Source of the DNA: Polyporus tsugae
Lineage: Eukaryota; Basidiomycota; Agaricomycetes; Polyporales; Polyporaceae
Direction: 5' to 3'
Length of the DNA: 64,000 nt
Assembly: GCA_024305745.1 (NCBI GenBank)
Contig: JAHRBS010000013.1
Span: forward strand, 1,178,001-1,242,000
Under the pieces are notes generated by a model. That model did no database searches. It was not told the DNA's origin and worked only from the letters and a program-made list of their open reading frames with translations. Shown here piece by piece: positions 33,880-56,597 of the stretch (positions are counted from its first letter, which is position 1; each line of letters starts with the position of its first letter). The position numbers and the translations under genes were made by a program.

Positions 33880-34307
33880 ACAATTGATTTTATACCTCAT
33901 CAATTGTAATGGTTTATCCTTTTTGGTTAGGCCAGTCATCAGTCATACTATTGTTAAGTAGTTGCGGATGAATTATCAATAGAGATTTCTAAACTTGAAG
34001 AAGGCCTAGACCTGTTTGACTGTTTTGGGGGCTGGCCATTCTCGAATGGCTTTTAGCTTAACGGGGTCTATTGCAACTTCACCTTCTCAGATAATGGCAC
34101 CAAGGAACTCAACTTCTGGGACCTCAAACAGGCACTTTTCTGGTTTGAGGTGGAGGTCGTGTTCCTGGAGTTGTTTCAGTGCTTGCTGTGTTCTAATGTG
34201 GTGTTCTTCCAAGTTGTTCAAGAATATGAGGATATCATCCATGTAGATGATGATCCATCCTTCACACGTGAGATTGTGAAAGATTTCGTTCATCATACGC
34301 TGGAATG
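33880..34307 (-). pseudogene. Gypsy-2 reverse transcriptase fragment (right half)
   Basis: The minus strand reads F-Q-R-M-M-N-E-I-F, then the RT active site I-I-Y-M-D-D-I-L-I-F, L-K-P-E-K-C-L-F-E and V-E-F-L-G-A-I-I, ending in a decayed R-N-L-Y and L-T-K-K-D-K-P. It begins exactly at the end of copy B's 3' LTR after GAATG (34303-34307). The missing left half of the same RT, ending N-A-P-A-T-F, is at 49160-50567 next to copy C's 5' LTR. The catalytic YMDD is intact but the gene is split, and in-frame stops occur near 33990. Confidence 0.88.
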
Positions 34308-34753
34308 TGTTACGACTGGACGTCGAGTAAGGATCAGGGATACGTACGAGACAAGCAGGAGCACCGACAAGCACTTGTGCAGCGAGAGCGGAGCAAGGCT
34401 CAACAGTCAGGGCTGGAGACAAGATGTATTGAGTAAGTAGGTGTCTACGAGTGAAATACAGCAAGACTTACCTAGAGACAAGAGGTCAAAACTGAGGTCT
34501 CCAGGCAGTGAAGTACAGGTCCTTATATATGTATAGAGGATAATGAGAACCCGGGGACAATATGTAACTATGGACATGGGTGAACAATGGAAACAGAACA
34601 ATAGCGACTGTGGACAATAAGGAGCTATTGTGCTAAAGAACAAAGGATGAGATACAATGCAATGGAGAACAATAAGTACGACGCGAGAAGTAGATCGTCC
34701 GGAAAAGGAAACTAAGGTGCTGGTAGCAGGCGCCAAATAAAATGTTCATGACA
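34308..34753 (-). repeat. Gypsy-1 3' LTR, copy B
   Basis: 446 bp. Its first part (TGTCATGAACATTTTATTTGG) matches the 3' LTR of copy C. Its last about 100 bp (ending CGACGTCCAGTCGTAACA) match the 5' LTR of copy C. It is followed by CATTC on the minus strand. Confidence 0.92.
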
Positions 34754-34785
34754 ATACCCCCCTCCTAAGGGTTGTGCCTTCATGA

Positions 34786-37700
34786 CTAAGTCTTCTTGAG
34801 AGGACCAGGTGCCTCTGCGTGTGTTGAATGGAATTTCTGCACGAGTTGCGGCGTATTTGTAAGGTCCACTGCATCCTCCCAGCTGTCGTGTTCAGGGCCC
34901 CAACCCTTCCAGTATACGAGGTACTGCAGTTTCTTCCACCGCCCATACCGCCGCGACTCCAACACTTCCTCCACTTTGTACTCTTCCTCCCCCTCCACCT
35001 CAATTGCCGCTGGCTCTGCCGGGTGATGACCAGGGAGTCGACTCTCCTTGTGTGGAAGCAAGAGAGAAACATGGAATACTGGGTGGACTACAAGGTCCTT
35101 AGGGAGTCTAAGCTTGTAAGCTAGATTGCCCACCCTGTGTACAACCGGATATGGGCCAGCATACCGATCTACCAGTTTCTAAGAGACTCCAGGAACATGG
35201 AAGTTCCTCGTGTCTAGCCACACCTTCTGGCCTTCCTTGAACTCTGGAGTGTCACGGACATGATCATAGTACTCCTTCATCCGCTCACCTGCCAGAGTCA
35301 AGGCCGCGGTTGCATCCTCTCGCACCTGTCGCAACTCCTCTTGACGTTCATCAGCTGCAGGCACTGCCATAGGCAACATCGGAATGTGGAACTGGGGTTC
35401 ATAGCCGTACATGAGGTAGAATGGCGAGTAACCCATTGACAAGTGCTGGTGCGAGTTAAAGGCAAACTCTGCAATCGGCAGCCACTTGACCCAGTCATCG
35501 CGGTGCCGTGAGCAGAACATACGAAGGTACACCTCTATCTCCTGGTTCCATTGTTCCAATTGCCCATCTGTCTGCGGGTGGTAGGCTGTGGACATTGCAC
35601 TTTCTATGCCGAGTCCCTTAAGTACAGTGCGGAAGAGCTTGCTTGAGAACTGGGGCCCATGATCAGAGATGATCTTCCGTGGCAGCCCGTGAAGACGAAA
35701 ATGTTCTCGGATGAAGTTGTCAGCAGCTCCTTCTGTGTCAATCTCCTCGGTGCAAGGAATAAGATGTATCATCTTTCCATGCTGATCAGCGATGAGCTGA
35801 AGCGTGTTGTATCCATCCACCTCTGAGAGTCCAGTGATGAAGTCGCACGTCACAATCTGGCCCGGGCCATCAGGGATTTCATTTGGTTGAAGAGGACCGT
35901 GCGGTTTGGCATGCGAACCCTTGCCGCGGCGACAGGTGTCGCAGGTCTCAACGTAATCCTTGATGAACTTTGCCATGCCCGGCCACCAGTAGTTTTGTGT
36001 GACCAACTCCAACGTCTTCGACTGCCCAGGGTGTCCAGCGGGCGGGAGGTCGTGGTGGATGCGTACAACCTCAGCACACAGCGCGTCGTCCTTGGGGACA
36101 TAGACTTTGCCTCAGTACAGTAGCAGGCCTTGCTCACTGTTCCAGTCCACCAAGTCATTCTGAAGACGTGCTGGTCCAAGTTTGTCCAGTTTAATGAGTG
36201 CCTCCACGACCTCCTGCTCGTGCTCTCCACACTCGCGGATGCGTCGAAGCAGTGCCTTCTCTGGAACCACCAATAGATGCCCTCTCTTGGCTGCCAGTAC
36301 TCGGAAATGTTCTGGCTGCAACAAGACTCGACCGAGATTGTCATCTGCATCCTTGTGCTGGTGGTCGGGCCATCTCGACAGTGCATCGGCCCTGCCATTA
36401 GACGTCCCAGGCTTGTGCGAGATGACAAAGTCAAATCGTGACAGGTAGAGAGCCCATCGTGCCTGCCTGCGTGTGAGGTTCTGTGCTGTGCGCCAATACT
36501 CGAGGTTCTTGTGGTCCAACTGGATCTCAAACACACTGGGGAGACCCTCGAGATAGTGACACCAAGCCTGCAGGGCACAAATGATGGCGAGCATCTCCTT
36601 GTCGTAGATCTCGTAGTTGCATTCAGCGTCGTTCATCGACTCGGAGTGAAAAGCGATGGGGTGCCATTTGCCATCTTCCCTCTCCTGAGACAGAACCGCG
36701 CCTGTAGCGAAGCCAGATGCGTCAACTTCGATGCGGGTGTTGCGGTCTGGATCATAGATTGTCAGGACAGGACTTTTGGTGAAGCAATGCTTGAGCGCGT
36801 CAAAGGCAGGCTGCTCTTCATCTCCCCATTGCCATGGCACATTGCCCGTGAGGTGATCCAAGGGTTTGCAGATGGCACTAAAGTCCTTTATGAACTGCCG
36901 ATAGAAGTTTGCGAAACCACGGAACTTCCGTACATCTGTGGCGTTCTGAGGGACAGGCCAATCCGCAATACCCTTCACCTTCACTGGATCCATCTCTACG
37001 CAGTTCTCCGAGACGAGTACACCGAGGTATTCCACCTTAGGCTGTTCGAACTCGCACTTCTCTGGCTTGCAGAACAGGTCGTTCTCCTTAAGACGTTTCA
37101 GGACCTCGCGCACCAATGTGCGGTGTTCCTCGAGACTGTCGGTGAATATGAGGATGTCGTTGAGGTAGATAGTGACTTTGCCGAGTATGATGAGGTCCTT
37201 GAAGATGTCGTTCATGAGCGCAGAGAATGTGCTGGGTGAATTGGCTAGCCCAAAGAACATAACATTCGGCTCGAACGGCCCTTGATTGGTCACGAAGGCA
37301 GCCTTCCACTCATTGCCGGCCTTAACCCGCACATTGTTGTACCCCCAGCAAATATCGAGCTTTGTGAAGTACTTGGCCTTCTTGAGTCAATCCATCAGAT
37401 CCGATACCAACGGTAGTGGGTAACGGTTCTTAATGGTGATCTCGTTGAGTCACCAATAGTCCTGGACTGGACGTAGGCTACCATCCTTCTTCTTGACAAA
37501 GAAGAACGGCAATGACATTGGTGACTTCGACTCTTGAATATAGCCTTTGGCCAAGTTCTCAGCGAGAAACTTGTCAAGCTCTCCTTGTTTGCTGGGCGAC
37601 AGGGGGTACACACGGGAATGGAACATCTTTGCATTGGGCACGAGCTCTATTGCATGGTCATAGGGTCCGTGTTCTGGCAAACATTTGGACGCCTCTTTCG

Positions 37701-38551
37701 AGAACACATGCAGGTATTCATGATAGTGCTCGGGTACAATCTCTTCGATGGGGCGGACTTCCTTCTTCTGGTACTCTTGCTCAGTGAGTTGTTGCGAATA
37801 TGTGTATGTTGCTGAAGCAAACAGTTGCGGAGCACCATAAAGGTGTTGTCCATCCTCCCATGCATCGAAAAGAGACATCTCAGTTCCATCCCACCACGGC
37901 AGGAATCCTGGCGGCCAGGGCCTATCCTCCTCCTTCTCCTCAGTCATCACGGCCGCACACACCCTTCCAACCTTCCTAACCTTCTTTGCCCGTCGAGGAC
38001 CGCGGTGCACTGTAAGCCGTACTCCGTATCACGCGCTTTGGTCTCAACAGGTTCAGAGGTTCTCTGGTTAGCCAGGCATGTCTCTGGACATCTCGACAGG
38101 TGCAGCGAGCCACGTTCCCAGTCTACTTCAGGGTTGTGCTCGCGTAGCCAGTCCAGGCCAATGATGACATCCTCTTCTCCTATATCCGTCACTACAAAGA
38201 CCACCTTCTCCCTGTGGTCTCCAATTGCCATATCCAACATGGCAACCTCTGTGATCGTACCATCACGGTTTTCTGAACCGTCGATGTTGTACAGAGGAAT
38301 TGGCCTTGCCAACTTCCTCGTTGTAACCCTATTCTGTTCTACGAATCATCTATGTAGGAACTTAGTAGTAGCACTGCTATCTACCATAGCTACAATGTCC
38401 TTATGTCACTGCTTGCCGATTAACCGTACCGGTATATGAAAGTGTTGACCATCGTGATTTACTTCATATACAAATGACGAACCCAGTACAGAAAATCGAC
38501 TATTACTACAAGAACCAGCACGTGCAGCATCCAATGCGGTTCTAATCAAAA
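34786..38551 (-). pseudogene. Gypsy-1 copy B pol with chromodomain
   Basis: In order: retropepsin with D-S-S-A instead of D-S-G-A (codon 38373-38375) and an early stop, RT with Y-L-N-D instead of Y-L-D-D (codon 37159-37161), RNase H (V-D-A-S-G-F, A-D-A-L-S), integrase zinc finger (C-D-T-C-R-R-G-K), DDE core (C-D-F-I-T-G-L, I-I-S-D-H-G-P-Q-F, H-P-Q-T-D-G-Q-L-E) and chromodomain (V-E-E-V-L-E-S-R-R, L-V-Y-W-K-G-W, H-D-S-W-E-D). In-frame stops include D-Y-W-stop near 37450, the shared D-L-M-D stop near 37387, L-L-Y-stop near 36112 and V-S-stop near 35179. A 3-bp deletion near 35265 removes an Arg present in copies C and E. Two catalytic residues are gone, so it could only move if helped in trans. 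Confidence 0.92.
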
Positions 38552-39900
38552 ACCCTCTTTCTTATCGACCACCGTAAGGGCGGCAATCTTCTCTTCCATT
38601 GCCTTGAGCTGGGCCTTGAGTGTCGTGAGCTCATCGGTACTGGATGAGGAAGAAGAGGCAGCTCATTGGCCCTCGACCTTGGGCTTTGGGCAGCAGAACA
38701 CGGGATGTCCTTTCTCACCGCAGTTCCAGCACTCGCCATCAAAGTTCTTCTTGCCCGAACCAGAGGTGGCTACCTGTTTGCCCTTCTTCTTCCATCCAAA
38801 TTGCTTTGGCTGTTCCTCCTCGCGCACGGCAAGTTGCTGGTCCATCTGCAGTGCAACTTTCTGGATCTTGGTGAGGTCCAAGATGTCGTGTGCTGTGGTC
38901 ACGAAGGTGTCCTTGATCTTGTAAGGGAGTGCCGTGCAGTACCGTTCGCGCTTGTCCGCATCACCGAACCTGGTGCGAGCAGCGATGGCATTGAACTGAC
39001 TGGTATAGTCCTTGATGGTGCCAAGCCGATGCGAAGCCTTGCAGAGTTTGGCGAGTTCTGTGACAGCCGCTTCCTTGTTGTTCGCAGCGCAGAAGTGCAC
39101 CTTGAATGGCCCTTCAAAGGCCGCAAAGTCTGACCACGCAACATTGCCGCTGGCCACCGTGACGATGTATGGGCTGGCCCACTCAGCAGCGCCACTGGTC
39201 AACTTGTTGAGGATTGTGATCCAGCGGATCGCATGCACAACACCTTGCGCCTTGAGAAGGTTGTAGTAGATGCGGGCATTAGCTACAAAGTGAAGCCCTT
39301 CCTGCGTGAGTTTTCCATCGTACTCGTGAGGGGTGATTTGAGAGAGGAGTTTGGAAACATCGAAGGGGGTGGGCGTGGCCATGATGGAAGCGGGTGATGA
39401 GGGTGGAGAGGGACTTGGCACGGGTGAGGGACCTGGCACAGGTGAGGGGCTACTCGGGGTGTTAAGAACAACGGTTTGTTGTGGAGGGGTCCCTGCCGGA
39501 GAGGGTGTGGGTGGGGGGTTGGATGTTTGTCGTGCAATACGGTCACTGGCTAGCGTAAGTGCTTGGCCAAGTGGAATGGATCCCAACGAGGGTGATCCGC
39601 TAGGAGTGGGGATACGACTAGGAGCACGGCTAGGGGGACGTGTACCTGGTCGGCTGATTGCAGCAGCAGAGGCTGCTCGTGGGAGGTGGTTGGTGGGGAC
39701 TCTGGGTCGTGACTGGGTGATGAGATTGTTCTGCTCTGGGGCGGTTGCGACAAAACTGGGATACTGAGACCAGCTTTCCTCGTCCCAGTCAAAGGTGTTT
39801 GACCGGTTGGGGCAGGGTTGTTGTTCGCAGATGTACCACCGTGAGTCTAACTCATGCCAATGCTGGTCTTCGACCGCGACAACGTGGAAGACGTGCCCGT
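38549..39900 (-). pseudogene. Gypsy-1 copy B gag
   Basis: Same structure as in copy A: a Pro/Ser-rich N-terminal region, core from P-F-D-V-S-K-L-L-S-Q, and zinc knuckle C-W-N-C-G-E-K-G-H-P-V-F-C. The frame is open to a TGA at 38663-38665, where copy A has an Arg codon. Beyond it the tail (T-L-K-A-Q-L-K-A-M-E-E-K) runs to the regular stop next to the GGGTTTT heptamer at 38555-38549. The 307-residue core is identical to that of copy C as translated. The frame is open 5' of the Met at 39586 to about 39900, so the start is uncertain. Confidence 0.88.
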
Positions 39901-40313
39901 ATGTACTGCAGCTCGCCAGGTTGTTGGAACTCGCTTCCTATCCAAGGAACAGAGACGGCGGGTGCACAATCCAACGCTGTCTGCTCAGCCTCCTCGGCCT
40001 ATTGCTGTGTCTTAACCACGAGGGACATGAGCCCAGGGGTGTCCTGCCTTGGCTTTGTTTTGCCGCCTTTCTCTAGCCTCCCACGCCGTGAGGCGGACCA
40101 CTTCTGTCAGTGCCGGGGTCTCGGGTTAGGAGCTTTCCGCGCACTGTACCACTAAAAGTGGCAAGCCTCGAGTTGAATCAAGACCACATCCGATGGTGTG
40201 ACTAGAGCGCGCACTACGCTAGGCCAACACAGAGGGTCAAGAGTGCGTACCGTACGAGGGGAAAAGGGAAAGGGTGTGGGTACACCGGTGCTCGTGAAGT
40301 AGTTTTGACCTAA

Positions 40314-40759
40314 TGTTACGACTGGCCGTCGAGTAAGGACCAGGGAGACTTACGAGACGAGCAAGGGCGTCAACGAGCACTTGTGCAGCAAGAGCAGAGC
40401 AAGGCTCAATAGTCAGGGCTGGAGACAAGATGTATTGAGTAAGTAGATGTCTATGAGCGAAATACAGCGAGGCTTACGTGGAGACAAGAGGTCGAAACTG
40501 AGGTCTCCAGGCAGCAAAGTACAGGTCCTTATATACGTATAGAGGACAATGAGAACCCGGGGACAATAGGTAACTATGGACACGGCTGAACAATGGGAAC
40601 GGAACAATAGCGACTATGTACAATAAGGAGCTATTGTGCTGAGGAACAAAAGACGAGACACAATGCAACGGAAAACAATAAGTACAACGTGAGAAGTAGA
40701 TCGTCTGGAAAAGGAAACTAAGGTGCTGGTGGCAGGTGCTGAATGAAATGTTCATGACA
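40314..40759 (-). repeat. Gypsy-1 5' LTR, copy B
   Basis: 446 bp, almost identical (one difference noticed in the first 120 bp) to the LTR at 46445-46890 in the opposite orientation. Flank TCTGG on its outer side, as for that LTR. Part of the left palindrome arm. Confidence 0.93.
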
Positions 40760-43199
40760 CCAGACCAATGAACCCAAAGCCAAGTAGTGGTATACTACAA
40801 GGAGACATTCCCTTTGCTAGAAACACCCTTGTCCAGCTCCACATGACCCTGAGTGCTTAAGCCTAGCCCACTTTGATAAGAGCTCAGACTATCGCAAGCC
40901 AAGGAAGACATTGTCTGCAAGTTAGGAATAGTACTCCCCATCAAACAACTAGATTACGGAAGTACCCATTCAACAGAACCAGTCATAGAAGTCAACAGTG
41001 CCACTTCCATGAAAGGCCTCTTTCAATTCAAATAGCAAATACCAGTACATATCTGGGATCTATTCACCATAGTAAGTAGCAACCTCAAGGATATCTGACA
41101 CCACAACCCAGGATACACTCTTACCCTGGTTCAGCATGCACTCAATCACCTTACAGCGACTGAAGCCATATTCCTCTTTTGGCAATTCTGGAACTCGCAG
41201 CCCTATGTTACACTCCCAGATCTATTTACATAGTTTATTGAGAACCAAATTTGATACCTCTAAAACTACATCTTCGACCCAACCAACCTAGTAGACCTGA
41301 CACTCCGACACAACCTCACCACACTCCAGAAGTACCTTGATGCCAGGAGACTTCTAACTCTATCCCAAAGACGAACCCACAAAGGGGCACATGACTAGCA
41401 AGCAACTGTCGTGCATAGGAAAGGTACATGCATACAACAAAACAGGAAACCACGATCAACACAAACAAACTCGAGGGTGGACACCTTGTCACTTTGGACT
41501 CTGCCTAGAAAGATACCAACATATTGTGGACAGCATCAATTATACTGATCACCTTCTTCAGCCAACACTTGACCAGGAAGAAACCATCAAGACCGAGTTC
41601 ACTTATAAGAGATTCCAGACCCTTAAAGTGGCACCAAGGACTCCCACAGGCAGCCTGATCACACCAACGAGCCAGATCCCTTCACTAAGATTCACAACCA
41701 GGACATTACCTCTAGTCACTCTGGAAGTGACAGAGCAGACAACAACACAGGAAGAACAAACACCAGAAACCCCCAAATCAACAACTGTTCCAGGAGAACA
41801 ACAGTCACCAAAACCACTGTCAGTAGTTTCATACAAAGGTAACAGTCCAGAACCAGAACCGACACTGATGGATGCAGGATCAGACCATATCCAAACATGC
41901 ATTGCCAGATACACATTCACGTTCAAAGAGAAAGGCTATACAGGATCTTTTGACCCTGACTGAGAAATCTCCCACCAGGTGGTCACATTCATCAATGACA
42001 ACCCCAGCGATGCTGACAGACAAACAATCAAGCACCTCATCAGCAACACTACTGTGGTATAAGATTGGAAATCACCAGAGTTGGAAGTCACCCCCGCCAG
42101 CAGTGCTAGTGCAGTATATGGATCAACACTTGCCAGATTCTCCCGGCCGGTTTTCAAGGCCAGAGGAACCCCTTTCAACTGGGGCATCAAAGCAATGGCA
42201 GGCAGCAAGTCTGGAAACCCACCCGGACTTTCAGGCAAAGACAAAGACGTAGGAGAAGATCTCAATGATAGACCAGAGGACGATATCCCCCCTGAAGGAT
42301 CGGGGGGAGGGAGACCTTGGAGATCACTGGGAGGAGGAGATCCTGGACCTGGAGGACCAGGATGAGGCCCTGGAGGCCCCGGAAGACCTGGAGGACCTCC
42401 TGGCCTGGGGGATCCTCCAGCCATGGCACCGCATTTCAATGCAATCCCCATTCCCCAAATGGCAGGAGGCAAAGTCAAGATGAAGGCCCCTGATGTCTTT
42501 GCTGGAGATTGACACAAATCCCAAAAATGTTTTGACCAACTCTTCCTTCTCTTTTTGGGCAACCCTGGGAAGTACAACACCGATCACGCCTGGATCACGA
42601 CAGATCTATCCTACATTGGAGGAGATACAGTACAATATTGGGTTTGTTAAGAACAGAACAGCTAGAACCAGCTACACCAAAAGGGTGCAATGTCAAGCTT
42701 GGCTTGACACTTGGCTGGTACTATATATGTAGTTCATAATGTGTTCATGACAGGGTTGAAAACAAGATTGATGAGATCTGAAGACAACTAGGAGCCACCA
42801 CATGGTCAGAATTTCAAGCTGAATTCAGACTGGTTTTTGCGCCACTGCACAAAGCCGACAATGCCCTCCTATCGCTGGACAAACTCAGGCTCTCGGAACA
42901 CCTGACAATCCGTGAGTTCAACGGACATTATAATGAACTCATTAGAAAGGGTCGAGTCACTGACTCCCTGGCCAGACTGGCATGCTACCAAAATGCACTA
43001 CCCTCATGGTTACGACAAAAGATCTCTACCTTGTACCCAGCTCCAAAGACCATCATCGACTGGATCAGACGGGCCACAGATATCTATGAAGCTGACCTCA
43101 TCAATCAATAAATTGATGCAGGCTTTAGAAATTGCTGAACCCAATGCCTGACCATGCAAATGAAAGTACGACAAAATCAGTCGGAGCACACCAAGAAGC
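40760..43199 (+). pseudogene. Gypsy-2 gag region, left palindrome arm
   Basis: Gag-like coding sequence broken by many stops. In order: a segment with D-I-V-C-K-L-G-I-V-L-P-I near 40905, a 190-codon frame at 41391-41963 (T-F-T-F-K-E-K-G-Y-T-G-S), a Gly/Pro-rich stretch (P-G-P-P-G-type, about 42300-42420), then the core of a Retrotrans_gag domain: M-K-A-P-D-V-F-A-G-D, F-L-G-N-P-G-K-Y, D-L-S-Y-I-G-G-D, W-S-E-F-Q-A-E-F-R-L-V-F-A-P and L-P-S-W-L-R-Q-K-I. It ends at E-H-T-K-K where the arm meets the spacer; the zinc knuckle is only present on the other arm. Gag packages element RNA. Family link to the Gypsy-2 pol pieces is inference from location. Confidence 0.75.
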
Positions 43200-43388
43200 T
43201 TCGTGTAGGATCATGTAAGCTACCTAGCACGTGCTCAGTGCACTGTCACCTCGCCTCTGTCGAGCTCTGTTGTCCTTAGACTTCTTAGAGCTCGACTTAG
43301 GTGAGTAGTTTATTTCCCTGTTAATGATAGACTTCTTAGAGCTCGACTTAGGCCATTGTGACCGCTCTGAGGCGCACTGCAGCTAACA
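43200..43388 (-). repeat. Truncated LTR-2 in the palindrome spacer
   Basis: The first 189 bp of LTR-2 in minus orientation (TGTTAGCTGCAGTGCG... to CTACACGAA). It starts at the exact edge of the left arm. Confidence 0.88.
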
Positions 43389-43469
43389 TGGCATCCTGTC
43401 TCTCTATTGGCTCCTCCTGGTTCTGTTGTGGTTTTTTTCTTAGCTATTAGTTAGTTTGTTGGTTTCCAG

Positions 43470-43855
43470 GGTTTTACTGTACAATACATAGACAAGGATC
43501 GAGGTCTCAGAAATACAGACTCGGCTTCCCCCTCTCTCACTCATTCATCCTCTGTGCATGCCATGTGCCTGCACTCTGTCCGGTTTCTATCTGTCTAGCT
43601 CATGTGCATCGTGAGGTACATTCTCGTTGTCCCTGTCTTCCATCTCAGGCTGGGTGCCCTTGGCTGGGTGCTGTTAGCTCTGCATGAGCTTCTCTATATC
43701 ATTGCATACAGTCCGTCGCTGCGTGCGCCCGTATTTCCATTCCATGTCCACTCCCTCCATCCTTGAGCACCTGACCGCTCCTCCATCTTTCAGCAGTCTG
43801 TTGTTTCTGTTGGTTTTTAGCAGATCCCCTGTACCGTACACATCAGCGGTACTTG
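43470..43855 (-). repeat. LTR-3-like sequence in the palindrome spacer
   Basis: Diverged relative of 9572-9953: shared gcagatcccctgtaccgta block near 43823-43842, pyrimidine-rich block near 43530 and a tacatag...gaggtc block. Boundaries uncertain. Confidence 0.45.
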
Positions 43856-46444
43856 TCAGCTGGGTTTCTTTTCTTTGGGTCTGTTGGGACAGTTCCTGGC
43901 CTGATGTCCTGCCTTGTGGCATACAAAACATAAGTTCTGTTGCATATGCCTCAAGCGCTCTTCCACTATCATCTTGTTTATGTCAGCAGAAGTGCTGGTG
44001 TCGGGCTTCTTGGTGTGCTCCGACTGATTTTGTCGTACTTTCATTTGCATGGTCAGGCATTGGGTTCAGCAATTTCTAAAGCCTGCATCAATTTATTGAT
44101 TGATGAGGTCAGCTTCATAGATATCTGTGGCCCGTCTGATCCAGTCGATGATGGTCTTTGGAGCTGGGTACAAGGTAGAGATCTTTTGTCGTAACCATGA
44201 GGGTAGTGCATTTTGGTAGCATGCCAGTCTGGCCAGGGAGTCAGTGACTCGACCCTTTCTAATGAGTTCATTATAATGTCCGTTGAACTCACGGATTGTC
44301 AGGTGTTCCGAGAGCCTGAGTTTGTCCAGCGATAGGAGGGCATTGTCGGCTTTGTGCAGTGGCGCAAAAACCAGTCTGAATTCAGCTTGAAATTCTGACC
44401 ATGTGGTGGCTCCTAGTTGTCTTCAGATCTCATCAATCTTGTTTTCAACCCTGTCATGAACACATTATGAACTACATATATAGTACCAGCCAAGTGTCAA
44501 GCCAAGCTTGACATTGCACCCTTTTGGTGTAGCTGGTTCTAGCTGTTCTGTTCTTAACAAACCCAATATTGTACTGTATCTCCTCCAATGTAGGATAGAT
44601 CTGTCGTGATCCAGGCGTGATCGGTGTTGTACTTCCCAGGGTTGCCCAAAAAGAGAAGGAAGAGTTGGTCAAAACATTTTTGGGATTTGTGTCAATCTCC
44701 AGCAAAGACATCAGGGGCCTTCATCTTGACTTTGCCTCCTGCCATTTGGGGAATGGGGATTGCATTGAAATGCGGTGCCATGGCTGGAGGATCCCCCAGG
44801 CCAGGAGGTCCTCCAGGTCTTCCGGGGCCTCCAGGGCCTCATCCTGGTCCTCCAGGTCCAGGATCTCCTCCTCCCAGTGATCTCCAAGGTCTCCCTCCCC
44901 CCGATCCTTCAGGGGGGATATCGTCCTCTGGTCTATCATTGAGATCTTCTCCTACGTCTTTGTCTTTGCCTGAAAGTCCGGGTGGGTTTCCAGACTTGCT
45001 GCCTGCCATTGCTTTGATGCCCCAGTTGAAAGGGGTTCCTCTGGCCTTGAAAACCGGCCGGGAGAATCTGGCAAGTGTTGATCCATATACTGCACTAGCA
45101 CTGCTGGCGGGGGTGACTTCCAACTCTGGTGATTTCCAATCTTATACCACAGTAGTGTTGCTGATGAGGTGCTTGATTGTTTGTCTGTCAGCATCGCTGG
45201 GGTTGTCATTGATGAATGTGACCACCTGGTGGGAGATTTCTCAGTCAGGGTCAAAAGATCCTGTATAGCCTTTCTCTTTGAACGTGAATGTGTATCTGGC
45301 AATGCATGTTTGGATATGGTCTGATCCTGCATCCATCAGTGTCGGTTCTGGTTCTGGACTGTTACCTTTGTATGAAACTACTGACAGTGGTTTTGGTGAC
45401 TGTTGTTCTCCTGGAACAGTTGTTGATTTGGGGGTTTCTGGTGTTTGTTCTTCCTGTGTTGTTGTCTGCTCTGTCACTTCCAGAGTGACTAGAGGTAATG
45501 TCCTGGTTGTGAATCTTAGTGAAGGGATCTGGCTCGTTGGTGTGATCAGGCTGCCTGTGGGAGTCCTTGGTGCCACTTTAAGGGTCTGGAATCTCTTATA
45601 AGTGAACTCGGTCTTGATGGTTTCTTCCTGGTCAAGTGTTGGCTGAAGAAGGTGATCAGTATAATTGATGCTGTCCACAATATGTTGGTATCTTTCTAGG
45701 CAGAGTCCAAAGTGACAAGGTGTCCACCCTCGAGTTTGTTTGTGTTGATCGTGGTTTCCTGTTTTGTTGTATGCATGTACCTTTCCTATGCACGACAGTT
45801 GCTTGCTAGTCATGTGCCCCTTTGTGGGTTCGTCTTTGGGATAGAGTTAGAAGTCTCCTGGCATCAAGGTACTTCTGGAGTGTGGTGAGGTTGTGTCGGA
45901 GTGTCAGGTCTACTAGGTTGGTTGGGTCGAAGATGTAGTTTTAGAGGTATCAAATTTGGTTCTCAATAAACTATGTAAATAGATCTGGGAGTGTAACATA
46001 GGGCTGCGAGTTCCAGAATTGCCAAAAGAGGAATATGGCTTCAGTCGCTGTAAGGTGATTGAGTGCATGCTGAACCAGGGTAAGAGTGTATCCTGGGTTG
46101 TGGTGTCAGATATCCTTGAGGTTGCTACTTACTATGGTGAATAGATCCCAGATATGTACTGGTATTTGCTATTTGAATTGAAAGAGGCCTTTCATGGAAG
46201 TGGCACTGTTGACTTCTATGACTGGTTCTGTTGAATGGGTACTTCCGTAATCTAGTTGTTTGATGGGGAGTACTATTCCTAACTTGCAGACAATGTCTTC
46301 CTTGGCTTGCGATAGTCTGAGCTCTTATCAAAGTGGGCTAGGCTTAAGCACTCAGGGTCATGTGGAGCTGGACAAGGGTGTTTCTAGCAAAGGGAATGTC
46401 TCCTTGTAGTATACCACTACTTGGCTTTGGGTTCATTGGTCTGG
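43856..46444 (-). pseudogene. Gypsy-2 gag region with zinc knuckle, right palindrome arm
   Basis: Inverted copy of the left arm (44005-46444) with the same gag blocks and the same stops. Unlike the left arm it continues past the symmetry edge into the gag C-terminus: T-S-A-D-I-N-K-M-I-V-E-E-R-L and the zinc knuckle C-F-V-C-H-K-A-G-H-Q-A-R-N-C (CX2CX4HX4C), ending P-K-E-K-K-P-S and a stop at 43856-43858. This arm therefore looks like the original and the left arm like the copy. The outer end joins a Gypsy-1 LTR at 46445. Confidence 0.8.
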
Positions 46445-47942
46445 TGTCATGAACATTTCATTCAGCACCTGCCACCAGCACCTTAGTTTCCTTTTCCAGA
46501 CGATCTACTTCTCACGTTGTACTTATTGTTCTCCGTTGCATTGTGTCTCGTCTTTTGTTCCTCAGCACAATAGCTCCTTATTGTACATAGTCGCTATTGT
46601 TCCGTTCCCATTGTTCAGCCGTGTCCATAGTTACCTATTGTCCCCGGGTTCTCATTGTCCTCTATACGTATATAAGGACCTGTACTTTGCTGCCTGGAGA
46701 CCTCAGTTTCGACCTCTTGTCTCCACGTAAGCCTCGCTGTATTTCGCTCATAGACATCTACTTACTCAATACATCTTGTCTCCAGCCCTGACTATTGAGC
46801 CTTGCTCTGCTCTTGCTGCACAAGTGCTCGTTGACGCCCTTGCTCGTCTCGTAAGTCTCCCTGGTCCTTACTCGACGGCCAGTCGTAACATTAGGTCAAA
46901 ACTACTTCACGAGCACCGGTGTACCCACACCCTTTCCCTTTTCCCCTCGTACGGTACGCACTCTTGACCCTCTGTGTTGGCCTAGCGTAGTGCGCGCTCT
47001 AGTCACACCATCGGATGTGGTCTTGATTCAACTCGAGGCTTGCCACTTTTAGTGGTACAGTGCGCGGAAAGCTCCTAACCCGAGACCCCGGCACTGACAG
47101 AAGTGGTCCGCCTCACGGCGTGGGAGGCTAGAGAAAGGCGGCAAAACAAAGCCAAGGCAGGACACCCCTGGGCTCGTGTCCCTTGAGGTTAAGACACAGC
47201 AATAGGCCGAGGAGGCTGAGCAGACAGTGTTGGGTTGTGCACCTGCCATTTGCATTCCTGGTATAGGAAACAAGACCCTCCACTCTGGCTTGTCAAACCT
47301 TTGGGCACACCTTTCACCTGCATGAGGTTCAGGACAAGCATTGGGATACGGTTAGACAGCGCTGGGCAGTCTGCGAAGATCAACCGTGTCCCAATCGTCG
47401 ACGCACCTTCAGAGCTACTCCAGAAGTAATCAACACTATCGCTCCAAGGCTCATCATCAAAGACAGCCAGGACTCGCAGATCCGCACACGACTCCTCAAT
47501 CCCCCTGTCCCAGAACCTCGAGACCCTGAACACCCTCCCCAATGACAGGCTGCCATCGTTGCTTCCAGAAACCCCTCCTCGCACCCTGCCTTGCACCCAA
47601 CTTTGTGACCTCAAAGTCACATCTCCACACCTGGAGGATCCCCATCTCTAGGACCCATTCCGCTTGGTTGTGCTCTTTCATTAGCAAGTGAACATATTGC
47701 AAGACGCACTTCCAACCCTCTGACACCCACCACACCAAACCCGACAACCCCACCAGTCGGGACTCCACAACGAGAAACTGATGTCCTCAACACCCCGAGT
47801 AGTCCCTCTCCACCCTCATCGCCCACTCCCACCATGACCACATCCACCCCCTTTGATGTCTCCAAACTCCTCTCTCAAGTTGCCCCTCGCGAGTACAATG
47901 GAAAGCTTGCACAGGAAGGGCTCCGCTTTGTAGCCAATGCCC
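46445..47942 (+). mobile_element. Gypsy-1 copy D: 5' LTR, leader and variant gag start
   Basis: 5' LTR 46445-46890 (446 bp), leader, then a gag N-terminal part whose sequence departs from copies A, B and C after 47175. The gag core start reads S-T-P-F-D-V-S-K-L-L-S-Q-V-A-P-R-E-Y near 47847, close to the variant in copy E. The element is cut at 47942 by LTR-2, which shows no target duplication here, and no downstream half of copy D follows. Confidence 0.85.
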
Positions 47943-48799
47943 TGTTGGCTGCAGTGCGCCTCAGAGCGGTCACAATGGCCTAAGTCGAGCTCTAAGAAGT
48001 CTATCATTAACAGGAAACTAAACTACGCACCTAAGTCGAGCTCTAAGAAGTCTAAGGACAACAGAGCTCGACAGAGGCGAGGTGACAGTGCACTGAGCAT
48101 GTGCTAGGTAGCTTACATGATCCTACACGAACTGGCACCGTTCTGGCGCTGAAAGGACGAGAAATGCCTAAGGTAGAGTCCACTCTCTAAACCGAGTCAT
48201 TGAGTAAGAGTATGGTATATCTCTATGAGAACGTAGAATGAAGCGATGTGGAAAGTACCAGAGGGTAGGGTACAGTACGTAGTATATATGGTGCGTGTTA
48301 CGACTGGCCATCGAGTAATGACCAGGGAGACTTATGAGACGAGCAAGGGCGTCGACGAGCACTTGTGCAGCAAGAGCAGAGCAAGGCTCAATAGTCAGGG
48401 CTGGAGACAAGATGTATTGAGTAAGTAGATGTCTATGAGCGAAATACAGCGAGGCTTACGTGGAGACAAGAGGTCGAAACTGAGGTCTCCAGGCAGCAAA
48501 GTACAGGTCCTTATATACGTATAGAGGACAATGAGAACCCGGGGACAATAGGTAACTATGGACACGGCTGAACAATGGGAACGGAACAATAGCGACTATG
48601 TACAATAAGGAGCTATTGTGCTGAGGAACAAAAGACGAGATACAATGCAACGGAGAACAATAAGTACAACGTGAGAAGTAGATTGTCCAAAAAAGGAAAC
48701 TAAGGTGCTGGTGGCAGGCGCCGAATGGAACATTCATGACAGTGCGAAGCGGGACTTGGCGCGGTCAAAGGAACGCACGCTACAGCACCGACTTCAACA
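47943..48799 (+). repeat. LTR-2 interrupted by a nested solo LTR
   Basis: LTR-2 runs 47943-48295 and 48747-48799 (406 bp after removing the insert and one GTGCG). Outer flanks tgccc and gcagc do not match, so it is not a simple solo insertion. Confidence 0.88.
48296..48741 (-). repeat. Solo Gypsy-1 LTR with perfect target duplication GTGCG
   Basis: 446 bp, TGTCATGAAT...CAGTCGTAACA on the minus strand. gtgcg occurs at 48291-48295 and again at 48742-48746. The host sequence is LTR-2, so Gypsy-1 was active after LTR-2 inserted here. Confidence 0.95.
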
Positions 48800-49159
48800 G
48801 CAGCTGCCATTGGAGCAAACTGGGGCCTGCACGCATTTGAACAAGCAGACAGCGGAGACGGGCGAGGACGGCGATAGAGATAGAATGTGGCAAACCCGGG
48901 AGGGAGACATGGGCAGAAAAGGAATGCCAGCACATTGGAATGAGGAGGCAAGGGATAGAAGAGAGGGAGGACTGGAGACCAAGCAAGATGCGCTCGCACG
49001 AAGGCAGAAGGATGACATAGTGTGGGGCTAGAATGCGGGGTAGAAACAGATGGACTATCAGTCCAGCGAGCACATGCATGCTGGGACCAAGATGCTGCTG
49101 CGAGCGCACAGCGCGCAAAGATTCTGGGGGCGGAGAGTGAGAATCCTGGGATAGACAGG
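48800..49159. other. No gene seen
   Basis: Purine-rich on the plus strand. Short frames exist on both strands but nothing recognisable. Confidence 0.45.
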
Positions 49160-50567
49160 CTGTAGACCCATCACCGTGCGAGGGTCAAAAGATCCTCAAG
49201 GAGGATCTGGAGTCATCTACGGAAGAGAGTGCTAAAGAATCTAATACCAAAAGTGAAAAGGAGGACAAGTTCAAAGTGAACGCTATTCAGGCAGACGTGG
49301 ACCCCTACCACACAGATTGTTAGAAGGGCAGGCAGAACCAACACCTGACTTGCCCATGAGTTCAGACTTCATTGTAAACCTAGTAACCAATACAGAAAGG
49401 CGCAAACACGCCCTTCTTATACCCGGTTACATTGAAGTCGAAACTCAAGTCATTGGAGTCAAAGGTCTCATTGACACTGGTGCAGATGCAGTCATCATCA
49501 ACACTCAACTAGTGGAAAAGTGCAATATACTCACAGTCAGACTACCACAACCACTCACCTTCTGAGACGCAGATGACAGCATCAATAAGCACGGAACTAT
49601 TACACACCGAATTGAAGAAAACTTCCCACTGAACAAATGATGCCTACCTACCTGATGGTATGTGGCAGACCTAGGTCAGGACAACATCATTCTGGGCATG
49701 CCATGGATTCACTGATATAACCCTACAATTAATTAGCGGATCGGACAAGTCAAGTTCTGTACAAAAGTCATCAAAGAACAGCAACATGTTCACAAGTATC
49801 AAGAGACCCACGACGCTCCTATCGGAACAATATGGGGCCTCCCCGCACTAGGAGTACTACAGGGAACAGTACTCTCCTATATTGAGTCCACCGATATCGA
49901 CATTGACAATGAACCATTGACCCACAGCCCATCAAGGATCATCAAACACTTATGGGAAACCTCCACAATTCGCAGGATGAACAAGTCCACCAAAATTGTG
50001 ATTGCAGTAGCACAGGGAAAAAAGGACATCCCCTCGAAGAACTTGTACCTGGTTATGCACACAAATTCACAGCCATCTTTGAAAAAAAAAGCAGCTGAAC
50101 AATTTCCCCTAGCAAGATCTTGGGACCACAGAATCAAGATAAAAGAGGAATTTAACCTAAAGGACAGACAATGGGGAAGAATCTACCCTTTAACCCTCCA
50201 TGAACAGGGCAAATTGCATGAATTCATTGACAAAAATCTAGCCAAAGGATTTATCCGTCGATCGGAATCACAGTTTGCATCAACATTCTTCTTTGTATCC
50301 AAAAAAGATGGCAGCCTTTGACCTGTACAGGATTATCGCACACTGAATGATGCCACAGTCAAAGACATGTATCCCCTACCGCTTATTGAAGACCTTTTCA
50401 ATAAACTAGGTCAAGCATTAATTTTCACCAAGTTTGACGTCCGGGCCAGCTACAACAACATCTGGATCAAGAAAGAAGACCAGCACAAAGCAGTGTTCAT
50501 TACCCCACTAGGACTGTACAAACCGACAGTTATGTTCTTTGGATTGTGTAATGCTCCAGCAACATTC
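49160..50567 (+). pseudogene. Gypsy-2 pol: protease and left half of the reverse transcriptase
   Basis: A gag-tail-like frame at 49176-49320 (Ser/Glu/Lys rich) leads, after a frame change, to a retropepsin with G-L-I-D-T-G-A-D-A-V (near 49472). After several stops and shifts the RT begins: F-I-D-K-N-L-A-K-G-F-I, F-F-F-V-S-K-K-D-G-S-L, a TGA at 50320-50322, Y-P-L-P-L-I-E-D-L-F, F-T-K-F-D-V-R-A-S-Y-N and F-F-G-L-C-N-A-P-A-T-F. It breaks off at 50567, inside the RT palm just before the YMDD block, at the 5' LTR of copy C. The rest of the palm is at 33880-34307 in the opposite orientation. Confidence 0.88.
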
Positions 50568-51013
50568 TGTCATGAACGTTCCATTCGGCACCTGCTACCA
50601 GCGCCTTAGTTTCCTTTTTCGGACGATCTACTTCTCACATTGTACTTATTGTTCTCCGTTGCATTGTATCTCGTCCTTTGTTCCTCAGCACAATAGCTCC
50701 TTATTGTCCGTTGTCGCAATTGTTCCGTTTCCATTGTTCACCCGTGTCCATAGTTACCTATTGTCTCTGAGTTCTCATTATCCTCTATACATATATAAGG
50801 ACCTGTACTTCGCTGCCTGGAGACCTCAGTTTTGACCTCTTGTCTCCAGGTAAGTCTTGCTGTATTTCGCTCGTAGACACCTACTTACTCAATACATCTT
50901 GTCTCCAGCCCTGACTGTTGAGCCTTGCTCCGCTCTCGCTGCACAAGTGCTTGTCGGCGCTCCTGCTTGTCTTGTACGTATCCCTGATCCTTACTCGACG
51001 TCCAGTCGTAACA
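50568..51013 (+). repeat. Gypsy-1 5' LTR, copy C
   Basis: 446 bp, TGTCATGAAC...CGTAACA, followed by TTAGGTTGAAAC at the primer-binding position. Confidence 0.95.
50638..50800 (+). promoter_or_regulatory. LTR promoter: ATTGT cluster and TATA box
   Basis: Seven ATTGT motifs, mostly as ATTGTYC, between 50640 and 50766, plus the inverse CACAATAGC, precede the TATA-like atatataagg at 50791-50800 and a CTGTACTT start region. The arrangement is kept in every Gypsy-1 LTR here. ATTGT/ACAAT is the core of HMG-box and of inverted CAAT sites; which factor binds is not known. Confidence 0.55.
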
Positions 51014-51439
51014 TTAGGTTGAAACTTCTCCACGAGCACCAGCGCACCTTTCCTCCAGGAGTTTACACACGTTTATCATTCCCCTTTCCCCTTGTACGGT
51101 ACGCACTCAGATCCTCTGTGTTGGCCTAGCGTAGTGCGCGCTCTAGTCACACCATTGGATGTGGTCTTGATTCAACTCGAGGCTTGCCACTTTTAGTGGT
51201 ACAGTGCGCGGAAAGCTCCTAACCCGAGACCCCGGCACTGACAGAAGTGGTCCGCCTCACGGCGTGGGAGGCTAGAGAAAGGCGGCAAAACAAAGCCAAG
51301 GCAGGACACCCCTGGGCTCATGTCCCTCGTGGTTAAGACACAGCAATAGGCCGAGGAGGCTGAGCAGACAGCGTTGGATTGTGCACCCGCCGTCTCTGTT
51401 CCTTGGATAGGAAGCGAGTTCCAACAACCTGGCGAGCTG

Positions 51440-52802
51440 CAGTACATACGGGCACGTCTTCCACGTTGTCGCGGTCGAAGACCAGCATTGGCATGAGTTA
51501 GACTCACGGTGGTACATCTGCGAACAACAACCCTGCCCCAACCGGTCAAACACCTTTGACTGGGACGAGGAAAGCTGGTCTCAGTATCCCAGTTTTGTCG
51601 CAACCGCCCCAGAGCAGAACAATCTCATCACCCAGTCACGACCCAGAGTCCCCACCAACCACCTCCCACGAGCAGCCTCTGCTGCTGCAATCAGCCGACC
51701 AGGTACACGTCCCCCTAGCCGTGCTCCTAGTCGTATCCCCACTCCTAGCGGATCACCCTCGTTGGGATCCATTCCACTTGGCCAAGCACTTACGCTAGCC
51801 AGTGACCGTATTGCACGACAAACATCCAACCCCCCACCCACACCCTCTCCGGCAGGGACCCCTCCACAACAAACCGTTGTTCTTAACACCCCGAGTAGCC
51901 CCTCACCTGTGCCAGGTCCCTCACCCGTGCCAAGTCCCTCTCCACCCTCATCACCCGCTTCCATCATGGCCACGCCCACCCCCTTCGATGTTTCCAAACT
52001 CCTCTCTCAAATCACCCCTCACGAGTACGATGGAAAACTCACGCAGGAAGGGCTTCACTTTGTAGCTAATGCCCGCATCTACTACAACCTTCTCAAGGCG
52101 CAAGGTGTTGTGCATGCGATCCGCTGGATCACAATCCTCAACAAGTTGACCAGTGGCGCTGCTGAGTGGGCCAGCCCATACATCGTCACGGTGGCCAGCG
52201 GCAATGTTGCGTGGTCAGACTTTGCGGCCTTTGAAGGGCCATTCAAGGTGCACTTCTGCGCTGCGAACAACAAGGAAGCGGCTGTCACAGAACTCGCCAA
52301 ACTCTGCAAGGCTTCGCATCGGCTTGGCACCATCAAGGACTATACCAGTCAGTTCAATGCCATCGCTGCTCGCACCAGGTTCGGTGATGCGGACAAGCGC
52401 GAACGGTACTGCACGGCACTCCCTTACAAGATCAAGGACACCTTCGTGACCACAGCACACGACATCTTGGACCTCACCAAGATCCAGAAAGTTGCACTGC
52501 AGATGGACCAGCAACTTGCCGTGCGCGAGGAGGAACAGCCAAAGCAATTTGGATGGAAGAAGAAGGGCAAACAGGTAGCCACCTCTGGTTCGGGCAAGAA
52601 GAACTTTGATGGCGAGTGCTGGAACTGCGGTGAGAAAGGACATCCCGTGTTCTGCTGCCCAAAGCCCAAGGTCGAGGGCCAATGAGCTGCCTCTTCTTCC
52701 TCATCCAGTACCGATGAGCTCACGACACTCAAGGCCCAGCTCAAGGCAATGGAAGAGAAGATTGCCGCCCTTACGGTGGTCGATAAGAAAGAGGGTTTTT
52801 GA
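51440..52802 (+). pseudogene. Gypsy-1 copy C gag
   Basis: The frame is open from about 51440 (S-T-Y-G-H-V-F-H-V-V-A-V-E-D-Q) through the Pro/Ser-rich region, the Met at 51762 and the core to the zinc knuckle C-W-N-C-G-E-K-G-H-P-V-F-C near 52619-52657. A TGA at 52683-52685 replaces the Arg of copy A; past it the helical tail runs to the natural stop 52800-52802 (K-K-E-G-F). Gag makes the particle and its zinc knuckle binds RNA. I place the start upstream of 51762 because the extra N-terminal sequence is conserved in all copies, although no clear initiator Met was found. Confidence 0.88.
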
Positions 52803-52837
52803 TTAGAACCGCATTGGATGCTGCACGTGCTGGTTCT
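52793..52837 (+). other. Candidate programmed -1 frameshift signal between gag and pol
   Basis: Heptamer GGGTTTT (52793-52799) fits X-XXY-YYZ in the gag frame and is followed at once by the gag TGA. A -1 slip reads TTG-ATT-AGA and opens the pol frame (L-I-R-T-A-L-D-A-A-R-A-G). Five bases later AGAACC (52805-52810) can pair with GGTTCT (52832-52837), enclosing a GCAT-TGG-ATGC hairpin (52811-52821) and the palindrome GCACGTGC. All four gag-pol copies keep heptamer and outer stem. Confidence 0.65.
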
Positions 52838-55800
52838 TGTAGTAATAGTCGATTTTCTGTACTGGGTTCGTCATTTGTATATGAAGTAAATCACGATGGT
52901 CAACACTTTCATATACCGGTACGGTTAATCGGCAAGCAGTGACATAAGGACATTGTAGCTATGGTAGATAGCAGTGCTACTACTAAGTTCCTACATAGAT
53001 GATTCGTAGAACAGAATAGGGTTACAACGAGGAAGTTGGCAAGGCCAATTCCTCTGTACAACATCGACGGTTCAGAAAACCGTGATGGTACGATCACAGA
53101 GGTTGCCATGTTGGATATGGCAATTGGAGACCACAGGGAGAAGGTGGTCTTTGTAGTGACGGATATAGGAGAAGAGGATGTCATCATTGGCCTGGACTGG
53201 CTACGCGAGCACAACCCTGAAGTAGACTGGGAACGTGGCTCGCTGCACCTGTCGAGATGTCCAGAGACATGCCTGGCTAACCAGAGAACCTCTGAACCTG
53301 TTGAGACCAAAGCGCGTGATACGGAGTACGGCTTACAGTGCACCGCGGTCCTCGACGGGCAAAGAAGGTTAGGAAGGTTGGAAGGGTGTGTGCGGCCGTG
53401 ATGACTGAGGAGAAGGAGGAGGATAGGCCCTGGCCGCCAGGATTCCTGCCGTGGTGGGATGGAACTGAGATGTCTCTTTTCGATGCATGGGAGGATGGAC
53501 AACACCTTTATGGTGCTCCGCAACTGTTTGCTTCAGCAACATACACATATTCGCAACAACTCACTGAGCAAGAGTACCAGAAGAAGGAAGTCCGCCCCAT
53601 CGAAGAGATTGTACCCGAGCACTATCATGAATACCTGCATGTGTTCTCGAAAGAGGCGTCCAAATGTTTGCCAGAACACGGACCCTATGACCATGCAATA
53701 GAGCTCGTGCCCAATGCAAAGATGTTCCATTCCCGTGTGTACCCCCTGTCGCCCAGCAAACAAGGAGAGCTTGACAAGTTTCTCGCTGAGAACTTGGCCA
53801 AAGGCTATATTCAAGAGTCGAAGTCACCAATGTCATTGCCGTTCTTCTTTGTCAAGAAGAAGGATGGTAGCCTACGTCCAGTCCAGGACTATTGGTGACT
53901 CAACGAGATCACCATTAAGAACCGTTACCCACTACCGTTGGTATCGGATCTGATGGATTGACTCAAGAAGGCCAAGTACTTCACAAAGCTCGATATTTGC
54001 TGGGGGTACAACAATGTGCGGGTTAAGGCCGGCAATGAGTGGAAGGCTGCCTTCGTGACCAATCAAGGGCCGTTCGAGCCGAATGTTATGTTCTTTGGGC
54101 TAGCCAATTCACCCAGCACATTCTCTGCGCTCATGAACGACATCTTCAAGGACCTCATCATACTCGGCAAAGTCACTATCTACCTCAACGACATCCTCAT
54201 ATTCACCGACAGTCTCGAGGAACACCGCACATTGGTGCGCGAGGTCCTGAAACGTCTTAAGGAGAACGACCTGTTCTGCAAGCCAGAGAAGTGCGAGTTC
54301 GAACAGCCTAAGGTGGAATACCTCGGTGTACTCGTCTCGGAGAACTGCGTAGAGATGGATCCAGTGAAGGTGAAGGGTATTGCGGATTGGCCTGTCCCTC
54401 AGAACGCCACAGATGTACGGAAGTTCCGTGGTTTCGCAAACTTCTATCGGCAGTTCATAAAGGACTTTAGTGCCATCTGCAAACCCTTGGATCACCTCAC
54501 GGGCAATGTGCCATGGCAATGGGGAGATGAAGAGCAGCCTGCCTTTGACGCGCTCAAGCATTGCTTCACCAAAAGTCCTGTCCTGACAATCTATGATCCA
54601 GACCGCAACACCCGCATCGAAGTTGACGCATCTGGCTTCGCTACAGGCGCGGTTCTGTCTCAGGAGAGGGAAGATGGCAAATGGCACCCCATCGCTTTTC
54701 ACTCCGAGTCGATGAACGACGCTGAATGCAACTACGAGATCTACGACAAGGAGATGCTCGCCATCATTTGTGCCCTGCAGGCTTGGTGTCACTATCTCGA
54801 GGGTCTCCCCAGTGTGTTTGAGATCCAGTTGGACCACAAGAACCTCGAGTATTGGCGCACAGCACAGAACCTCACACGCAGGCAGGCACGATGGGCTCTC
54901 TACCTGTCACGATTTGACTTTGTCATCTCGCACAAGCCTGGGACGTCTAATGGCAGGGCCGATGCACTGTCGAGATGGCCCGACCACCAGCACAAGGATG
55001 CAGATGACAATCTCGGTCGAGTCTTGTTGCAGCCAGAACATTTCCGAGTACTGGCAGCCAAGAGAGGGCATCTATTGGTGGTTCCAGAGAAGGCACTGCT
55101 TCGACGCATCCGCGAGTGTGGAGAGCACGAGCAGGAGGTCGTGGAGGCACTCATTAAACTGGACAAACTTGGACCAGCACGTCTTCAGAATGACTTGGTG
55201 GACTGGAACAGTGAGCAAGGCCTGCTACTGTACTGAGGCAAAGTCTATGTCCCCAAGGACGACGCGCTGTGTGCTGAGGTTGTACGCATCCACCACGACC
55301 TCCCGCCCGCTGGACACCCTGGGCAGTCGAAGACGTTGGAGTTGGTCACACAAAACTACTGGTGGCCGGGCATGGCAAAGTTCATCAAGGATTACGTTGA
55401 GACCTGCGACACCTGTCGCCGCGGCAAGGGTTCGCATGCCAAACCGCACGGTCCTCTTCAACCAAATGAAATCCCTGATGGCCCGGGCCAGATTGTGACG
55501 TGCGACTTCATCACTGGACTCTCAGAGGTGGATGGATACAACACGCTTCAGCTCATCGCTGATCAGCATGGAAAGATGATACATCTTATTCCTTGCACCG
55601 AGGAGATTGACACAGAAGGAGCTGCTGACAACTTCATCCGAGAACATTTTCGTCTTCACGGGCTGCCACGGAAGATCATCTCTGATCATGGGCCCCAGTT
55701 CTCAAGCAAGCTCTTCCGCACTGTACTCAAGGGACTCGGCATAGAAAGTGCAATGTCCACAGCCTACCACCCGCAGACAGATGGGCAATTGGAACAATGG

Positions 55801-56565: not shown

Positions 56566-56583
56566 TCATGAAGGCACAACCCT

Positions 56584-56594
56584 TAGGAGGGGGG
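56584..56594 (+). promoter_or_regulatory. Polypurine tract before the 3' LTR
   Basis: aggagggggg three bases before TGTCATGAAC, the expected primer site for plus-strand DNA synthesis. Confidence 0.85.
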
Positions 56595-56597
56595 TAT

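Follow-up and report, generated by a model that had tools for sequence, protein, structure and literature searches.

Here we analyse a 64,000-nucleotide stretch of the Polyporus tsugae genome (the window; positions 1178001-1242000 of contig C2, in an assembly of 43.2 Mb in 18 contigs) that holds four copies, A to D, of one Ty3/gypsy family with long terminal repeats (LTRs) of ~446 bp. In this repeat-packed region, possibly a centromere, one element of the family appears to have inserted once into the reverse transcriptase (RT) gene of another element, Gypsy-2, and both flanks of that single insertion now stand on inverted copies 16 kb apart. The insertion was probably followed by an inversion of ~9.8 kb (40760-50567) through exchange between two inverted copies, which we call X and Y. 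Scraps of target site around the copies appear to trace this inversion together with signs of two further ones close by. Events of this type are already known; the chain of events here is unusually readable, the target duplications acting like matching torn edges that show, to the exact base and from a single genome, part of how a repeat cluster was rearranged.

The split site is marked by the motif CATTC. The upstream part of the Gypsy-2 RT (half 1) ends GCA-ACA-TTC, its CATTC at 50563-50567 lying directly 5' of the 5' LTR of copy C (50568); the downstream part (half 2) reads CATTC-CAG-CGT-ATG from 34307 on the minus strand, and the reverse complement, GAATG at 34303-34307, abuts the start of copy B's LTR at 34308. 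These letters are as the original prediction gave them, and neither B (GAATG/CCAGA) nor C (CATTC/GACTT) has matching flanks of its own, as it also claimed. Rather than being joined, the two halves were each placed separately on other Gypsy-2 copies, using extracted stretches numbered with L (L054 lies to the left and L055 to the right of the window, the others elsewhere in the genome). In all 14 of the 14 loci, which represent 9 distinct copies, the two placements share exactly 5 bases, although half 2 is placed poorly in L025 (score 16), apparently owing to a local deletion, and two copies judged from coordinates (C6:2420949 and C1:628368) also overlap by 5. The exact 5-bp overlap is thus seen in 11/11 other Gypsy-2 copies of at least 80% identity, which bears out the claim that one insertion site is divided over B and C. 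That count excludes half-1 matches of 64-78% (eight) and half-2 fragments of 76-78% (two); one weaker pair (C7:1475516-1475863 and 1475859-1475949) overlaps by 5 as well, and the other half-2 fragment (C1:600035-600125, 91 bases) has no half-1 mate among the matches listed. Among copies of at least 80% identity, the halves are separated nowhere but in the window. The best other matches to half 1 reach 87% (partial, on contig C1) and 86%, and the best other match to half 2 reaches 84%; such low identity suggests that neither half is a recent duplicate and that the halves were moved apart and turned.

The order of the neighbouring Gypsy-2 pieces points the same way. On coordinates g taken from a Gypsy-2 copy on contig C8, with g = 0 at the split site, 40764-43186 corresponds to g -3763..-1557 (plus, in pieces), 49189-50567 to g -1373..0 (plus) and 34307-33908 to g -4..395 (minus), and un-flipping 40760-50567 returns these three pieces (P1, the RT and the downstream part) to one order and orientation. 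We propose that X, an element of Ty3/gypsy type, entered the RT gene of a Gypsy-2 that was older and degenerate, duplicating CATTC, and that a second copy, Y, stood close by facing the other way; exchange between the two would then have inverted the ~9.8 kb between them, leaving the 5' end of X and its flank at C and the 3' end of X and its flank at B. We infer that this exchange was homologous recombination between the two elements. A substrate for it exists, since B and C are inverted to each other and identical over 4.57 kb: the copies are 98.4% alike overall, without any difference from 40191 to 35621 of B, followed by six events from 35621 to about 34510.

The ends of the two copies are less uniform. 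The 5' LTRs of B and C differ at 43 aligned positions of 446 and their 3' LTRs at 16, mostly at the outer end (79% identity over the final 67 columns). Copy B looks chimeric at both ends: its 5' LTR is 99.8% identical to the LTR at 46445 (that of the truncated copy E) and gives way to a C-type body, and its 3' LTR changes type within a second switch zone (Table 1; three sites private to B were set aside in the 3' LTR site count). With the body of C identical to that of B, a crossover in C cannot be placed. The outer end of the 3' LTR of B suits a mate of C's 5' LTR, which is what element X would predict. We downgraded the B 3' LTR mosaic as proof of where the crossover fell: copy A carries the same U5 mixture with intact duplications, so a mosaic can form without flank exchange and that of B lends weak support.

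Several observations weigh against the proposed history, at least in its simplest form. The reciprocal flank pair is mismatched (TCTGG 5' of B vs GACTT 3' of C), and unmatched flanks alone are not rare, two of the four full-length copies tested elsewhere (L015 and L016) lacking a matching pair. The 3' LTR of C resembles that of D throughout (99.3%), whereas a clean crossover predicts letters like those of C's 5' LTR in its inner part; copy A has mosaic LTRs despite an intact TCATA duplication. Together these two points suggest that gene conversion between copies is part of the story, and the two LTR types of copy A would themselves reflect gene conversion or LTR recombination without flank exchange. 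One arm of the palindrome described below, P2, reaches g -1385, beside the RT start at -1373, and is opposite in orientation to the RT, which leaves the original arm ambiguous. Finally, identical inverted arms would mislead an assembler, and the order given here is that of the assembly.

The original prediction of a ~10-kb inversion by recombination between B and C consequently stands in modified form. One site split by an inversion of ~9.8 kb is still the best reading, and it puts three Gypsy-2 pieces back in order; a clean two-element swap would not have left TCTGG and GACTT as partner flanks. A single reciprocal crossover is likewise too simple for two copies that share an identical body when both ends of B look chimeric; gene conversion must be added, and we suggest that such conversion between the arms made the bodies of B and C identical. 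Nor does the inversion seem to have been a lone event, given a balanced neighbour with non-homologous breakpoints and the GACTT site, which implies another. The phrase "direct sequence evidence" was too strong, near-identical inverted repeats being also where assemblies go wrong.

The 3' flank of copy C leads to these neighbouring events. The upstream mate of the Gypsy-3 fragment that follows C ends in GACTT at position 3868 of L055 (window-equivalent 67768), adjoining a 5' LTR at L055 3869; this partner LTR sits outside the window, 10.7 kb to the right of C's 3' flank. The two Gypsy-3 pieces overlap by exactly 5 bases in seven of seven copies tested (L039-L045, drawn from 41 other Gypsy-3 matches listed, with 40 of 117 candidates scored). 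Both pieces have the same orientation and their order is swapped, so one inversion cannot have separated them; the GACTT site would imply another inversion, and may have been split by a C-D exchange of the 1.0-kb piece between these copies together with a balanced inversion of 5.9 kb. C and D are inverted to each other and 99.5% alike over 5.1 kb. The balanced inversion, from 63223 to about 69151, appears to have cut copy D and a repeat, K. Copy D stops at 63222 and the L055 element at 5251, neighbouring positions of the same element, and on the element side this breakpoint pair is uninterrupted in L014, L016 and L021, where the 5-6 bases of apparent overlap include some that fit the neighbour too. 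On the other side, the two K parts are contiguous in L058, and in L059 and L060 their spacing departs from expectation by no more than a few bases. An open reading frame (ORF) that crosses the join gives a weak LINE-like match for K (Exo_endo_phos_2, 25.4 bits against a cut-off of 27.4). Both joins have CG in common, with no long homology in the letters seen, and end joining probably produced this inversion.

After all proposed steps the flank pair TCTGG and TTGCA is left unmatched. It is possible that the palindrome event replaced B's original 5' flank. An origin of Y as a simple insertion in Gypsy-2 or Gypsy-3 was rejected, as neither yields matching flanks. Gypsy-2 sequence upstream of the P1/P2 start (taken from L049 and L050) matches the window only at 6290-6649, ~0.9 kb from A, and in short pieces of the Copia-type repeat R; Gypsy-3 sequence downstream of 58043 (taken from L039) has a 95% match at 20732-21211.

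The palindrome itself lies within the inverted segment and in the adjoining end of B. Its arms, 40029-43199 and 44005-47175, show 1 mismatch in 3171 bases around a spacer at 43200-44004; they end sharply on both sides, with an abrupt inner junction inside R. The second arm takes in 46440-43846, which corresponds to g -3763..-1385 in the opposite orientation. The palindrome would be a recent inverted duplication of P1/P2, or else an assembly fault. The R copies R1 (truncated) and R2 and pieces of an element Z suggest a further flip or template switch in the spacer. The right part of Z (48800-49188) has one weak match (193 positions, 68%), and the genome search found no copy of it outside the R tail. 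The right flank of R2 matches neither left flank, and we claim no order for the spacer events.

The strongest rival to an inversion by exchange, though in our view an unlikely one, is an assembly artefact in which the wrong orientation was chosen between B and C (perhaps for the C-D spacer too), the true chromosome being un-inverted. The absence of any B-C difference over 4.57 kb and the one mismatch in the 3.17-kb palindrome arms favour it, and the tidy order obtained on un-flipping is also expected from misassembly. Against this, a genome of 43.2 Mb in 18 contigs suggests long reads, the palindrome arms end sharply on both sides, and the neighbouring inversion at 63223, whose joins have no long repeat in the letters seen, looks like a genuine one. 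Should reads contradict the present order, the locus would be a clear warning about assemblies at near-identical inverted repeats. Rather improbable, too, is that both orientations coexist, in the nuclei of a dikaryon or in a switching population, the assembly showing one of them; identical inverted arms would make recurrent flipping easy, and most of the B and C body is identical, but the basis is one assembly, in which the two forms are not seen side by side.

Other routes to the same flanks concern mechanism. We give similarly little credence to replication-based template switching, of the kind considered for the P1/P2 inverted duplication, having moved the flanks rather than a crossover: a near-perfect inverted duplication with an abrupt inner junction in R is not made by crossover alone, but the Gypsy-2 halves are not duplicated, as copying would leave them. 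Least credible by far are two independent insertions at the same RT position of two Gypsy-2 copies, each then losing its other flank. Counting the one in the window, this stretch of Gypsy-2 does have at least 12 copies in the genome; the reading would nevertheless require that the same base was hit twice and that the losses were complementary, and the missing mate of neither half is found elsewhere at high identity, the two mates being each other. One insertion followed by an exchange between inverted copies thus stays the preferred account.

The setting of these events may be centromeric. Repeat R, at 21438-21864, is 427 bp long (TGTT...CAACA), and an ORF beside it at 21793 has an SH3_retrovirus match, which we take to be a Copia mark, and an rve match below the cut-off. 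Of 62 R candidates 40 were scored, and all 42 of the 42 matches listed fall in 11 of the 18 contigs, clustering within 60 kb on each. In Ganoderma leucocontextum, GlCEN427 is reported to be a ~427 bp LTR belonging to a Copia element and to occur on each chromosome in a single region only, predicted to be the centromere; it is reported absent in G. sinense (PMC10817607). By description, R resembles GlCEN427 in length, Copia type and its one cluster per contig. The named RT proteins nearest to that of copy B come from G. sinense. From this once-per-contig distribution we infer on good grounds that the window is the putative centromere of contig C2. A more tentative idea, which we consider possible and on balance doubtful, is that inverted Gypsy copies keep remodelling the centromere through recurrent short inversions and gene conversion, at a pace that leaves arms of 3-5 kb identical or almost identical even though the 5' LTRs of these copies differ by ~10%. 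On that idea segment orientation may differ between nuclei, and pairs of target duplications would reveal in which order a centromere was rearranged. Centromeres are generally regarded as regions of suppressed crossing over; one paper bears the title 'Centromeres Convert but Don't Cross'. If the cluster is a centromere, it gives a definite and testable example of a fungal centromere undergoing inversion and gene conversion.

Comparable rearrangements are known from other systems. In yeast, copies of Ty, an LTR element, recombine ectopically and can leave mismatched flanks. The window resembles that case in its LTR-element copies with mismatched flanks, and differs in what appears to be a nesting of several events within one cluster, gene conversion and an inverted duplication among them. 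Ty-mediated rearrangements are also named in the cited part of a study of Galileo inversions in Drosophila buzzatii, which describes copies in opposite orientation, exchanged target duplications and chimeric copies, and concludes ectopic recombination (PMC2775673). Relative to the features given there, the window has opposite copies, exchanged duplications in one of two pairs (CATTC, not TCTGG vs GACTT) and apparent chimerism, seen in copy B only; furthermore, Galileo is described as a P-superfamily DNA transposon with 7-bp target duplications (PMC2775673), whereas here a Ty3/gypsy LTR element with 5-bp duplications bounds a 9.8-kb segment, and the one genome covered here shows no uninverted chromosome. 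The mechanism is most likely that argued for Galileo, namely ectopic homologous recombination between inverted copies. In Cryptococcus, according to the part of the study cited here, shared centromeric transposable elements were proposed as recombination substrates, with translocations inferred between chromosomes (PMC5568439); the likeness lies in such elements serving as substrates in a basidiomycete, the difference in a rearrangement confined to one cluster and read from target duplications. A literature search on the subject of mismatched flanks gave no hits, which does not show that such reports are lacking.

Table 1. Features in and beside the window (window positions). C5, 5' LTR of copy C; C3 and D3, 3' LTRs of copies C and D.
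Feature	Position	Strand	Remarks
Gypsy-2 half 1	49189..50567	plus	upstream part of split RT; ends CATTC at C's 5' LTR
Gypsy-2 half 2	33908..34307	minus	downstream part of split RT; begins CATTC, adjoins B's 3' LTR
Copy A	1-5372	minus	3' end in L054 (8800-10000)
Copy B	34308..40759	minus	3' LTR 34308-34753, 5' LTR 40314-40759; looks chimeric at both ends
B switch zone, 5' side	40029..40191	minus	E-type 5' end to C-type body
B 3' LTR switch zone	34370..34508	minus	C3/D3-like at 25/25 sites to C5-like at 13/14 sites
Copy C	50568..57043	plus	5' LTR 50568-51013, 3' LTR 56598-57043
Copy D	58044..63222	minus	3' LTR 58044-58489 and body; apparently cut at 63222 by another inversion breakpoint
E	46445..47942	plus	truncated Gypsy copy, 5' LTR and 5' part; 5' flank TCTGG, as in B
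Solo LTR, Gypsy family	48296..48741	minus	target duplication GTGCG on either side
P1, Gypsy-2 5' region	40760..43199	plus	part of one palindrome arm
P2, Gypsy-2 5' region	43846..46444	minus	second arm, opposite orientation
R1, truncated Copia-type 427-bp LTR	43200..43388	minus	within palindrome spacer
R2, Copia-type LTR	47943..48799	plus	interrupted by solo LTR 48296-48741
Element Z, left part	43389..43845		inserted in Gypsy-2; 76% match in insert of contig C15 copy
Repeat R, Copia-type 427-bp LTR	21438-21864, 28792-29218, 19664-20084, 43200-43388, 47943-48799		candidate centromere marker
Gypsy-3 fragment	57044..58043	plus	starts GACTT directly after C's 3' LTR
Repeat K, right part	63223..64000	plus	contiguous with L055:5252+ in another genome copy

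The family assignment of copies A to D is drawn from their ends and from copy B. The LTRs run TG...CA (TGTCATGA...CGTAACA, coding orientation), with TA in place of the initial TG at two ends (L048 and L055), and a polypurine tract, AGGAGGGGGGTAT, adjoins the 3' LTRs of B, C and D. On its minus strand copy B presents the order capsid, RT, RNase H, integrase, with Ty3_capsid at 39586-38663 (19.3 bits, under Pfam's 29.1), RVT_1 and RT_RNaseH at 37332-36112 and rve at 36012-35179; among solved structures its RT is closest to the Ty3 RT 4ol8 (2.1e-51), and its closest named proteins are from Ganoderma sinense (the best 85% over 90% of the query). Of 8 testable single-piece copies or solo LTRs of the family, 6 have a 5-bp target duplication (A, the solo LTR at 48296-48741, L014, L017, L029 and L048; not L015 or L016). 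B and C were left out of these eight, as were L009 and L013 (5' LTR truncated) and L018 and L019 (LTRs inverted), and a flank comparison of these last four found no matching 5-bp pair in any.

LTR mates are 96.9-98.9% alike in the four full-length copies L014-L017, compared with 89.2% and 91.3% in B and C, 90.5% in A (the two U5 types, between intact TCATA duplications) and 92.1% in L009 and L013. The idea that the family has different 5' and 3' LTRs as a rule was rejected on the mates of L014-L017; the divergent mates of A, L009 and L013 count against that rejection. Across seven mate or presumed-mate pairs, CpG sites make up 14-19 of 26-41 transitions (4 of 5 in L014), vs ~10% of bases, and this excess suggests that LTR decay is fast and uneven; the mostly-transition, CpG-enriched differences between the mates of A, B, C and L014 are as expected of methylated-CpG decay.

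Among the copies elsewhere, L009-L013 share the same 5'-truncated LTR, L009 and L013 being near-identical; four of them lie no more than ~60 kb from a contig end and the fifth is interior, an apparent segmental duplication that is partly subtelomeric. L018 and L019 carry inverted LTR pairs, 100% and 98.4% alike, with polypurine tracts on their outer sides, and are possible further rearranged copies. Elsewhere in the window, ORFs at 26230-28215 and 30061-32208 with a Helitron-like N-terminal part and a PIF1-like helicase are probable Helitron remains.

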